A program made the translations under genes and the position numbers. A stretch of 36,697 bases of DNA from Bacteroidales bacterium (GTDB lineage Bacteria > Bacteroidota > Bacteroidia > Bacteroidales > UBA932), in NCBI GenBank assembly GCA_024401925.1, contig JAKSKD010000017.1, positions 1 to 36,697 on the forward strand, in the 5' to 3' direction. Below are positions 4,150 to 36,697 of this stretch, piece after piece. How positions within the stretch are numbered: position 1 is the stretch's first letter; the number at the start of each line of letters is the position of its first letter. Below the pieces are notes generated by a model, which ran no database searches, had not been told where the DNA came from, and saw nothing but the letters and a program-made list of their open reading frames with translations.

Positions 4150-5145
4150 TTAGTCGTTGAGTGAGAATCTCTTGAAGATTACTACTTTTGCATCCTTGTC
4201 GGCTGCTGCCATAGCATCCTTCACTGACTGCTTTCCGTCGCCCATCTGATACTCCTGCTCTTCGAGAGTCATCTCTTTGAAGAACTTCTGGAGACGTCCG
4301 TTGGCGATGTTTTGAACCATCTGCTCAGGAAGGTTCGCTGCCTTCTCTGCGCCTACAGTCTTGATGATCTCACGCGCCTGTGCAGCCTGCTCAGGTGTAA
4401 GCCATCCCTTTGCTGTATTTGATTCGATGTGGTCTTCGCTGTCCACGTGTGCAGGATTGATGCCGGCTTTCTTCAAAGCTGCGTCAACTGCCTTCTGAAT
4501 CTGCTCTTCCTTTGTCTTCTCGATAGCGACTGCAAGTTCGTTGTCAACAACTTCCTTAGGGCAGTCAGCTGCGGAGATTGATACAGGATTCATAGAAGCG
4601 ACCTGCATAACGACACCCTTTGCGAGCTCAGCAGGGATTTCCTTGCTGAAACCTACGAGAGCACCGAGCTTTCCGTTAAGTACGTGTACATATGAAGAAA
4701 TGAAAGGAGCCTCAACGAGAGCATAATATGCGATCTCGTGCTTCTCACCGGTCTTACCGGTCTGCTCAGTAACGGCAGCCTCAACTGTGCGGCCGTCTGC
4801 GAGCTTGCAAGCGTTAAGAGCCTCAGCATCAGCAGGAGTATTAGCGATTGCTGCATCAGCAATAGCGTCAGCGAGAGTCTGGAATTCGCTGTTCTGTGAT
4901 ACGAAGTCGGTTTCGCAACCGAGGCATACGAGAATAGCCTTGTTTCCGTTTACCCTTGCCTTTACTGCTCCTTCGGAAGTATTGCGGTCAGCTCTCTTAG
5001 CTGCCACAAGCTTTCCCTTTTCGCGGATGATGTCAACTGCTTTGTTGAAATCGCCGTCAGCTTCTACGAGGGCGTTCTTGCAGTCCATCATACCAGCGCT
5101 TGTCATTTTACGTAATTTCATTACGTCTGCTGCTGTAATTGCCAT
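4150..5145 (-). CDS. tsf: translation elongation factor Ts
   Basis: A 331-residue EF-Ts, which exchanges GDP for GTP on EF-Tu. The N-terminal UBA-like segment (VMKLRKMTSAGMMDCKNAL) and the EF-Tu-contacting TDFV motif (79-82, followed by SQN) are plain. The protein is longer than the E. coli form (283 residues). The added length appears in the core and the C-terminal coiled region, as in other Bacteroidota. It is the last gene of the ribosomal operon, 18 bases after rpsB, and is followed by a strong terminator. Confidence 0.97.
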   Translation of the reverse strand: MAITAADVMKLRKMTSAGMMDCKNALVEADGDFNKAVDIIREKGKLVAAKRADRNTSEGAVKARVNGNKAILVCLGCETDFVSQNSEFQTLADAIADAAIANTPADAEALNACKLADGRTVEAAVTEQTGKTGEKHEIAYYALVEAPFISSYVHVLNGKLGALVGFSKEIPAELAKGVVMQVASMNPVSISAADCPKEVVDNELAVAIEKTKEEQIQKAVDAALKKAGINPAHVDSEDHIESNTAKGWLTPEQAAQAREIIKTVGAEKAANLPEQMVQNIANGRLQKFFKEMTLEEQEYQMGDGKQSVKDAMAAADKDAKVVIFKRFSLND

Positions 5146-5163
5146 AGTGCTTGTATCTTTAAA

Positions 5164-6012
5164 TTATTCTTCAGTTTTTGCTTCCTCTGCTGCCGGAGCC
5201 TCTGCTGCAGGAGCTGCTTCAGCTTCTACATCAACTGGCTTGGCACCTTTGCGGGCACGGAGGTTCTTCTTGGTTGGCTGCGCTGCAGCAGCTTCTTCCT
5301 CAGCAACTTCCTTGTCTTTCTCAAGCTTACGCTCGTCGAGGCCTTCCTGGATAGCCGCACAAAGTGCTTTCAATACACAAGTGATAGACTTTGTTGCATC
5401 GTCATTTGCCGGAATAACATAATCAATAGGTGAAGGATCGCAACATGTATCAACCATAGCGAATACCGGTATGTTAAGACGATTGGCTTCCTTAACGGCG
5501 TTGGCTTCCTTCTGGATGTCAACTACGAAGATAGCTGAAGGGAGGCGGCTCATATCGCGGATTGAACCGAGGTTCTTCTCGAGTTTAGCTCTCTGACGGT
5601 CAACCTGGAGACGCTCTCTTTTAGCGAGTTTGTCAAATGTACCATCTTCTTTCATCTTGTCGATGGTGCTCATTTTCTTGATAGCTTTACGGATAGTTGG
5701 GAAGTTGGTAAGCATACCGCCGGCCCATCTTTCTGTAACTGAAGGCATATTAACAGATGCTGCCATCTCTGAAACGATGTCCTTGCCTTGTTTCTTTGTG
5801 GCTACGAAGAGGATTTTGCGACCTGATTTAGCAAGGTCTTTCATTACCTCTGCAGCCTCGTCTATCTTGACGATAGTCTTGTGCAGGTCAATGATGTGGA
5901 TTCCATTCTTCTGGTCGAAGATATAAGGAGCCATCTTAGGATTCCACTTACGAGCCAAGTGACCGAAGTGAACACCTGCATCAAGCAATTCTTGGAAATT
6001 TGTTCTTGACAT
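5164..6012 (-). CDS. rpsB: 30S ribosomal protein S2
   Basis: A 282-residue S2. The family core from GVHFGHLARKWNPKMAPYIF to the central coiled-coil (KEDGTFDKLAKRER...) and the DPSPIDYVIPANDDA segment is intact. After about residue 225 comes a low-complexity tail rich in Ala and Glu. This tail is longer than in E. coli S2 (241 residues) and unlikely to sit in the ribosome core. The gene lies between rpsI and tsf. The 135-base gap before it is unusually long for this operon and can fold (see the leader entry), suggesting separate control of S2 and EF-Ts. Confidence 0.97.
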   Translation of the reverse strand: MSRTNFQELLDAGVHFGHLARKWNPKMAPYIFDQKNGIHIIDLHKTIVKIDEAAEVMKDLAKSGRKILFVATKKQGKDIVSEMAASVNMPSVTERWAGGMLTNFPTIRKAIKKMSTIDKMKEDGTFDKLAKRERLQVDRQRAKLEKNLGSIRDMSRLPSAIFVVDIQKEANAVKEANRLNIPVFAMVDTCCDPSPIDYVIPANDDATKSITCVLKALCAAIQEGLDERKLEKDKEVAEEEAAAAQPTKKNLRARKGAKPVDVEAEAAPAAEAPAAEEAKTEE

Positions 6013-36348: not shown

Positions 36349-36356
36349 TATCTTTG
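36349..36356 (+). promoter_or_regulatory. -7 box of the tRNA-Leu gene
   Basis: TATCTTTG matches the consensus exactly and lies 12 bases before the mature tRNA 5' end, so the primary transcript would have only a few extra 5' bases for RNase P to remove. TTTC at 36323-36326 is a partial -33, with a 22-base spacer. Confidence 0.6.
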
Positions 36357-36368
36357 TGAAAATATTTC

Positions 36369-36664
36369 GCCTTGGTGGTGGAATGGTAGACACGAGGGAC
36401 TTAGACAAATTTGAGTGCTCCTTCCGAAAGGATGGAAGTAGAATGTCGTAAATTCAAGGAAGCCTTAACAGATAATGCTGATGGTAATCTTGAGCCAAGC
36501 TCCTGTAAGGAGAAGGTGCAGAGACTAGACACGACACACCTGAAAGATTCTTCTATGGTGAAGGAATAGTCCGGACTACAAACAGAAATGGTGGCGAAAG
36601 CCATAGTAGCAAGAAAATCCCTTGGGCAGTAATGTCCGTGTGAGTTCGAGTCTCATCCGAGGCA
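36369..36664 (+). tRNA. tRNA-Leu(UAA) interrupted by a group I intron
   Basis: Exon 1 is 36369-36402 and exon 2 is 36614-36664. Joined, they give an 85-base class II tRNA. The acceptor stem pairs GCCTTGG (36369-36375) with CCGAGGC (36657-36663, one G-U), then discriminator A36664. The anticodon stem is AGGGA (36395-36399) with TCCCT (36618-36622), around loop CUUAAAA with anticodon UAA. The long variable arm carries GGGC/GTCC, and the T-arm is GTGAG-TTCGAGT-CTCAT. CCA is not encoded, as usual in Bacteroidota. The gene cannot give a tRNA without splicing. Whether this is the only UAA-reading leucine tRNA in the genome cannot be seen here. Confidence 0.93.
36403..36613 (+). ncRNA. group I self-splicing intron in tRNA-Leu(UAA)
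   Basis: A 211-base intron that starts after U34 and ends in G36613, as group I introns do. Helices traced: P1, exon ACTT (36399-36402) with GAGT (36413-36416), giving the required U-G at the splice site. P2 is a GAAA-capped hairpin (about 36421-36437). P3 pairs TGTCGT (36444-36449) with ACGACA (36531-36536). P4 pairs TTCAAG (36453-36458) with CTTGAG (36489-36494). P6 is CTCC/GGAG (36500-36512). P7 pairs GACTA (36523-36527) with TAGTC (36567-36571). P8 is CACC/GGTG (36537-36560). P9 is CTAC/GTAG with an inner GAAA-capped stem. GGTGCAGAGACTA is the classic conserved core. There is no homing endonuclease ORF. Layout matches the small IC3-type introns of cyanobacterial tRNA-Leu. Confidence 0.93.
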
Positions 36665-36667
36665 CGG

Positions 36668-36697
36668 GAGAGTGGCAAGTTTGTCACTCTCTTTTTT
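36668..36697 (+). terminator. rho-independent terminator of the tRNA-Leu gene
   Basis: GAGAGTG (36668-36674) pairs perfectly with CACTCTC (36685-36691). The stem extends inward by one or two pairs, and six T residues end the window. It begins 4 bases after the tRNA. Confidence 0.88.

Follow-up and report, generated by a model that had tools for sequence, protein, structure and literature searches.

The group I intron in the trnL gene of cyanobacteria and plastids, which is located between U34 and A35 of tRNA-Leu(UAA) and belongs to subgroup IC3, serves in textbooks as the example of an intron that is both ancient and immobile, its shared site being taken as evidence of descent. To our knowledge, this intron does not contain an HNH gene. 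Splicing by guanosine attack is established for group I introns, and the Azoarcus tRNA-Ile intron is another member of subgroup IC3. Bonocora and Shub reportedly described in 2001 an endonuclease of the Synechocystis tRNA-fMet intron that is aimed at the anticodon region.

Most cyanobacteria carry the cyanobacterial tRNA-Leu intron, as do many algae and the green plants (PMC4476775). Interrupted tRNA-Leu-TAA genes are also reported from the Beggiatoaceae (Gammaproteobacteria), where the introns in these and in tRNA-Arg-TCT genes are called putative group I introns of undetermined type (PMC4853749). Collaborative homing, with a free-standing endonuclease at the intron site, is treated in a review on group I introns in bacteria from 2014; the word stem "Bacteroid-" is absent from this review, according to which the phage introns then known were all in protein genes (PMC3984707). 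Searching the openly licensed literature, we found no report of a tRNA-Leu(UAA) intron in Bacteroidota or of tRNA-Leu introns in phages.

Here, we analyze a split tRNA-Leu(UAA) gene present in a stretch of 36,697 nucleotides (the window), which corresponds to a whole contig of a draft Bacteroidales genome (1.86 Mb, 67 contigs, 89% complete). The gene, the U34|A35 site, the U.G at the 5' splice site and a similar core are shared with the cyanobacterial and plastid trnL intron. Like the Azoarcus intron it is compact and interrupts a tRNA gene, in that case another tRNA, and like the reported Beggiatoaceae genes it is an interrupted tRNA-Leu(UAA) outside cyanobacteria, those hosts being Gammaproteobacteria. 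We consider it likely that the window contains an endonuclease-free group I ribozyme representing the end stage of a mobile intron family, whose HNH endonuclease would be aimed at tRNA-Leu(UAA). The features of the locus are as follows.

36349-36356, + strand: possible Bacteroidota -7 promoter element, TATCTTTG (read directly).
36369-36664, + strand: split tRNA-Leu(UAA) gene, with a 211-nt group I intron between U34 and A35.
36369-36402, + strand: 5' exon of tRNA-Leu(UAA), acceptor to U34, ending in GGGACTT (read directly; ARAGORN on the spliced sequence).
36399-36416, + strand: P1, exon ACUU (36399-36402) with the internal guide GAGU (36413-36416), U34.G wobble (read directly).
36403-36613, + strand: group I intron of 211 nt, P1 loop without HNH gene (RF00028; covariation over 53 introns).
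36403-36412, + strand: P1 loop, site of the HNH gene in relatives (read directly).
36411-36615, + strand: possible P10 between U 36411-36412 and A 36614-36615 (proposed; neither U varies among the 53 introns).
36418-36438, + strand: P2 hairpin (both-side changes in 5 of 7 pairs).
36444-36536, + strand: P3, 36444-36448 with 36532-36536 (both-side changes in 3 of 5 pairs; 100% paired).
36454-36493, + strand: P4-P5-P5a as a unit.
36454-36458/36489-36493, + strand: P4 (both-side changes in one pair).
36463-36464/36483-36484, + strand: P5 (both-side changes in no pair).
36469-36471/36478-36480, + strand: P5a (both-side changes in one pair).
36494-36517, + strand: P6 and P6a as a unit.
36494-36496/36515-36517, + strand: P6 (invariant).
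36500-36503/36509-36512, + strand: P6a (both-side changes in 3 of 4 pairs).
36521-36572, + strand: P7 (guanosine site), 36521 and 36523-36527 with 36567-36572, bulged A at 36522 (six invariant pairs).
36537-36560, + strand: P8, 36537-36540 with 36557-36560 (100% paired; no both-side changes).
36576-36609, + strand: P9 and P9b as a unit.
36576-36579/36606-36609, + strand: P9 (one pair with both-side changes).
36592-36595/36600-36603, + strand: P9b with GAAA loop (three pairs with both-side changes).
36614-36664, + strand: 3' exon of tRNA-Leu(UAA), A35 to A73, beginning with AAAATCCC (read directly; ARAGORN on the spliced sequence).
36668-36697, + strand: possible terminator, inverted repeat GAGAGTG...CACTCTC followed by six T (read directly).

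The Rfam group I intron model RF00028 matches positions 36393-36594 with 54.2 bits (gathering score 50; E 3.1e-11), and this is the sole Rfam match at gathering threshold within the window. Split tRNA-Leu(UAA) genes escape ARAGORN in its default mode, which detected zero tRNAs in the window as it stands; when position 36402 is joined to 36614, the same mode calls tRNA-Leu(taa). At this locus, the intron option of ARAGORN returns a tRNA-Ser(aga) with a 209-nt intron, which is two bases off. A U.G at the 5' splice site and a G at the 3' end of the intron can be read directly, and the U.G wobble of P1 together with the terminal G places the splice sites at 36402/36403 and 36613/36614. The coordinates, splice sites and tRNA-Leu(UAA) identity given in the first-pass annotation, which had also suggested the Rfam comparison, are therefore borne out by the RF00028 score and by the ARAGORN call after joining. 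The search that yielded the 125 related loci described below demanded TT ahead of the intron and G as the last intron base; because both were built into the search, the agreement of these loci on the splice sites is not an independent test. Upstream of the gene, TATCTTTG is presumably a candidate -7 promoter element of Bacteroidota. A terminator search under a rule of loops of at most 8 listed none at 36668-36697.

The fold was analyzed on an alignment of 53 related short-type introns, out of 54 (L044, whose 3' boundary was mis-set, was left out), on which 47 pairs of P2-P9b were assigned by hand. The window intron forms 46 of these pairs, the exception being a U-U in P2. Over the 53 introns, 99.2% of the cells are paired, and both-side changes are found in 17 of the 47 pairs (91 cells), a level of covariation matched by none of 500 shuffles; shifting the partners by 1-3 columns lowers the pairing to 29-42%. 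P6 and P7 are invariant in these introns, and hence covariation neither supports nor opposes their pairs. In P1, TTGAGTGC (53 of 53 introns) and the guide GAG are also invariant. Positions 36462/36485, which adjoin P5, are A-C in 28, G-U in 22 and A-U in three of the 53 introns. The P3-P9 core with the P3/P7 pseudoknot and the bulged A in P7 is present in the window. Folded as a single sequence, the window intron gives no signal above shuffled sequences (z -1.06; equalled by 32 of 200). The claims that P1 and P3-P9 are foldable and that this is a group I intron are upheld by the window pairs and by the covariation, the latter claim also by an Rfam score over the gathering threshold. The subgroup is tentatively IC3, and we file the intron as group I with no assignment to the cyanobacterial/plastid trnL lineage, with which the family was compared here through approximate sequences of two primers (g and h).

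The neighbourhood of the gene is chromosomal, with mreB, mreC and genes for a PBP2-like transpeptidase, a RodA/FtsW protein and a topoisomerase, and the contig ends 33 nt past the tRNA-Leu(UAA) gene. Among 29 other tRNA matches in the draft genome, ARAGORN reads the leucine anticodons CAA, CAG, GAG and TAG, and there is no further UAA leucine tRNA among these 29. As tRNAs for Lys, Val, Ile, Gln and Tyr are likewise missing from the calls for the draft genome, its tRNA set is incomplete, and that this is the only UAA gene is a weak statement for the window's genome alone.

A survey of 249 genomes of the window's family, the search of Bacteroidales genomes proposed in the first-pass annotation, confirmed that the split gene recurs. 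The family is presumably UBA932 in GTDB. RF00028 matches 26 of the 249 genomes; on reading, 23 of these matches are tRNA-Leu introns, and the other three (L053-L055), an intron in 23S rRNA plus two false positives, were dropped. The core pattern of the intron is likewise found in 23 of the 249 genomes, and the pattern of an uninterrupted tRNA-Leu(UAA) in 169 (43 with a stricter version of that pattern); both together occur in none, and neither in 57. No uninterrupted gene was seen in any of the 23 intron-bearing genomes, so that reading of UUA in these hosts probably relies on the ribozyme. In the window's genus, a looser 3' pattern is missing too in 11 of the 13 genomes having neither pattern. 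Several near-complete genomes of this genus (G022, G058, G072 and others) lack both the intron and the uninterrupted tRNA-Leu(UAA) pattern.

Scanning named genomes with a pattern yielded at least 119 loci; one or both halves of a tRNA-Leu are present at 115 of these, and both halves are missing at four. Among the 80 matches listed, 76 are labelled Bacteroidales, Bacteroidia, Ca. Cryptobacteroides or, in one case, Porphyromonadaceae, many of them from rumen or faeces, and the remaining four are Gammaproteobacteria with the intron in another tRNA. The same intron is present in Candidatus Cryptobacteroides onthequi, in agreement with the Bacteroidota host proposed earlier. Given 26 loci, ARAGORN with its intron option reads 14 of them as Leu(taa). 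ARAGORN misreads L070, L073 and L075 as Ser and calls nothing in L066. Leu(UAA) introns are also found in other Bacteroidota families: in f37 and f13 (L076, L077; ARAGORN agrees), in f8 (L295; ARAGORN) and, by reading alone, in f31 (L066). The view that an intron at this site is the hallmark of cyanobacteria and plastids is thus incomplete, as these four families also have Leu(UAA) introns and interrupted tRNA-Leu-TAA genes are reported from the Beggiatoaceae (PMC4853749). Plasmid records gave no intron match, the only tRNA-like stretch being in three Vibrio records. By reading, group I introns are also present in other Bacteroidota tRNAs: Arg-like (L059, L062-L064, L067-L069, L083), Met/Ile-like (L057, L060) and Lys-like (L074).

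The 125 loci with both splice sites as searched represent 111 distinct introns, as some genomes were taken twice. According to their P1 loop, 80 are short, 30 contain about 510 nt more, and 15 are in between. An HNH-motif open frame is present in all 30 long introns, in L091 without its N-terminus. The 15 intermediates have clear HNH remnants in seven cases, weak ones in three (L150, L162, L175) and an unrecognised insert in five. The P1-loop inserts of L199, L147, L088, L168 and L129 look related by eye, and HNH is not recognisable in them. The stretch that follows the 5' splice site is complementary to the one preceding the guide strand, so that P1 would be extended by a long helix around the HNH gene (mean z -5.4; z < -2 in 26 of 27, against single-base shuffles).

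The HNH genes are under purifying selection, with a median dN/dS of 0.085 (range 0.04-0.20) based on 16 usable pairs out of 325 from 26 genes; some pairs repeat (L051 and its copy L136), and L091 (broken N-terminus) and L119, L142 and L148 (missed by the search string) were left out. Residues C102, H121, N133, C138, N140, C141 and H142 are invariant over the 50 rows of the HNH alignment, which omits L250 (stops), L136 and L151 (copies) and L115 (odd N-terminus). PF01844 is above its cut-off in both proteins scanned and PF13392 in one of the two, and the relatives' HNH proteins match phrog_10822 (2e-45). NCBIfam models gave weak matches to the HNH region, far under cut-off, and a PDB profile search gave only weak matches (best E 0.0034). 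The HNH profile has no match in the window's genome, and the window intron is without endonuclease. In 326 Bacteroidota genomes, the profile (E <=1e-15) identified two: L295, inside the tRNA-Leu(taa) intron of family f8, and L296, which is free-standing and abuts an intact tRNA-Leu(taa). These genomes are a separate sample with the same link between HNH and leucine tRNA.

The core pattern was found in 20 viral stretches, some of them outside tRNAs, and the HNH protein query gave 38 viral loci, 37 of which show 35-55% identity. Viral tRNA-Leu(UAA) genes are split at the same site without HNH gene in L210/L211 and with HNH gene in L213, the L217 group, L223/L235, L229, L230, L240 and L260-L262; L227/L237 are Leu(UAA) by eye with an odd 3' exon, and L250 is Leu(UAA) by eye versus Ser by ARAGORN. 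RF00028 remained below its gathering score in L210, L213, L217, L229, L230, L240, L250, L260, L267 and L268, and the core profile gave no match in L240, L250 and L260-L262. For these last five, sequence motifs and the two parts of the tRNA are the basis of the group I assignment.

Of 26 distinct viral HNH genes, six are inside tRNA-Leu(taa) by ARAGORN and two more by reading, and the HNH gene of L250 lies in the tRNA that ARAGORN calls Ser. For the 19 not placed inside a tRNA, the closest intact tRNA is a leucine tRNA in 14 cases (6.2 expected; 0 of 100,000 draws). Against this neighbour test, just six of these 14 are UAA, and at four of the loci leucine tRNAs are the only tRNAs. The terminase (TerL) model finds a match in five of the 14 viral records searched; it also matches 11 of 14 genomes in a cellular control set. 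PHROGs searches with ten flanking viral ORFs gave matches, none to a structural hallmark gene.

A profile of 108 core positions placed phage tRNA-Leu introns as the best matches outside the family (L223, 8e-26; L217, 1e-25; L227, 6e-25; L213, 1e-22; L230, 2e-20). Phage introns outside tRNA-Leu (L224, 3e-20; L228, 4e-19; L218, 5e-18) all scored better than L210 (4e-16), another phage tRNA-Leu intron, as is L229 (3e-13). A Bacteroidota intron in another tRNA (L060) gave 8e-16 and gammaproteobacterial introns 3e-15 to 3e-11, and the other Bacteroidota tRNA-Leu introns scored lower (L077, 8e-12; L070, 3e-10; L066, 5e-7). The Azoarcus tRNA-Ile intron, in an approximate sequence, reached 32.5 bits, under the phage Leu cores. 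By BLAST, parts of the core show 78-82% identity to Staphylococcus and Klebsiella phage introns over 36-38% of the intron. A scan of viral contigs for the cyanobacterial intron motif found none.

The first-pass annotation had proposed a tree of intron cores. In an unrooted tree of 57 sequences including a random sample of the family's introns, the family joins L213 and L230 (80%), next L217 and L223 (92%), and next L227 (91%); L210 joins at 71%, L229 is placed without resolution, and the other Bacteroidota Leu introns fall outside the family-phage group. HNH-bearing and short introns are intermixed in this tree, as expected from repeated loss. In the HNH tree, a 100% branch parts the family's proteins from all phage ones, and this tree thus gives no support to a recent exchange between phages and the family. 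For 23 introns with genus codes, which were taken from MAGs, the AU test rejected a single clade for each of three genera (p 0.005, 0.013 and 0.004); the genus labels need nine changes on the intron tree (minimum three), on which 13 of 19 inner branches are weak. The trees are based on 107-217 columns. Movement of the intron between genera would be the simplest reading of this tree. The first-pass annotation had left open whether the intron reflects transfer or an ancient spread; the evidence (patchy presence, the AU test, the dN/dS of the HNH genes and the phage core matches) leans to transfer and favours horizontal spread over ancient inheritance.

The fold, the splice sites, the presence and absence of the intron, the conserved HNH genes and their remnants, and the viral copies can be read from the sequences themselves, and they suggest the following mechanism. 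The ribozyme would excise itself from precursor tRNA-Leu(UAA) through two transesterification steps initiated by guanosine, with P1 docking the 5' splice site, P7 binding G and the terminal G at 36613 marking the 3' site; that the window intron is self-splicing is suggested by its conserved core and splice sites. The spliced product would be the sole UUA-reading tRNA found in the draft genome. In the relatives, the P1-loop HNH protein is a putative homing endonuclease that would cleave uninterrupted genes in the anticodon region, the intron then being copied into tRNA-Leu(UAA) during repair. Location, conservation and the link to leucine tRNAs argue for both the homing and this cleavage specificity. 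The viral contigs, which contain the same intron/HNH family in tRNA-Leu(UAA), are a plausible vehicle. The window intron is then probably what is left of a mobile intron that has kept its ribozyme and lost its endonuclease. Transfer would probably be from phage to host, as the greater diversity of the phage copies favours phages as the source, the trees being unrooted.

In a broader reading, which in our judgement has about an even chance of being correct, an HNH family dedicated to leucine tRNA genes cycles between free-standing genes next to intact tRNA-Leu, phage tRNA-Leu(UAA) introns and bacterial introns, with phage copies seeding the hosts and the anticodon site being a repeated homing target. 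If the latter is true, a shared site alone is no proof of common descent, and this would extend to the classic case of cyanobacteria and plastids. The family's HNH protein resembles the Synechocystis tRNA-fMet endonuclease in being a tRNA-intron enzyme linked to the anticodon region, there in another tRNA. As in collaborative homing, free-standing and intron-borne members of the HNH family are found at the same kind of gene; here, the target would be leucine tRNA genes, and cleavage is putative. One Bacteroidales family contains, at the same site, introns with intact, decayed or absent endonuclease, and HNH-bearing copies are present in viruses, so that a cycle of gain, decay and loss is testable within that family.

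The genus-clade rejection needs no phages, and the 100% branch between the family's and the phage HNH proteins would also be expected if homing occurred between bacteria only, via DNA uptake or conjugation, with the phage copies acquired from bacteria. We consider this alternative unlikely, though worth keeping in view, because diversity is far greater among the viral HNH proteins (37 of 38 share 35-55% identity with the query), viral HNH genes are also found free beside Leu tRNAs, and the unrooted core tree has the bacterial introns surrounded by phage Leu introns. Quite improbable is vertical descent of an ancient intron common to cyanobacteria and plastids that was lost from most Bacteroidota, with the HNH genes as late passengers. 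The gene, the U34|A35 position and the general core are the same, several Bacteroidota families hold Leu(UAA) introns, and the P4/P6 stretch has 1-4 mismatches (three in the window) to an approximate sequence of the plant trnL primer g; against this stand the 7-9 mismatches to primer h, likewise in an approximate sequence, the patchy presence beside uninterrupted alleles, the rejected genus clades, and the phage cores as best matches, with the other Bacteroidota Leu introns outside that group. An assembly artefact or an insertion in a dead tRNA gene is hardly credible, as the proximity to the contig end (33 nt) and a possibly missing second UAA gene in the incomplete draft set are opposed by 111 distinct introns with the same layout, compensated pairs across introns, and the uninterrupted gene in none of 23 intron-bearing genomes.

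Apart from these readings, selected dual coding, with the HNH frame running through the ribozyme core, was considered for the family and rejected, as just 34 of 80 short introns and 12 of 29 HNH introns keep the frame open as far as the stop in P7. In the phage introns L213, L217, L223, L227 and L230, one ORF runs from the P1 loop in frame through the core into L8, with its stop in P7, and by reading its L8 domain is zinc-ribbon-like plus helix-turn-helix-like.

There are 233 phage records with an HNH match, two of which were inspected. At L267 (positions 4900-5520 of PP511876.1, Dulem virus 42), an HNH gene is located between what by reading are leucine-type tRNA halves, which ARAGORN calls Met; a group I core was not found there. 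At L268 (2824-3610 of LR756511.1, a 595-kb phage record), ARAGORN reports a tRNA-Leu(taa) with a 700-nt intron containing an HNH gene of the same family, and the core profile has no significant match. L269 (2410-2720 of MT708547.1, Klebsiella phage Muenster) is, by reading, a tRNA with a CAU anticodon that a group I intron interrupts (RF00028, 104.1 bits); it is located in a phage tRNA array, and both the tRNA and the intron are unannotated in that stretch.
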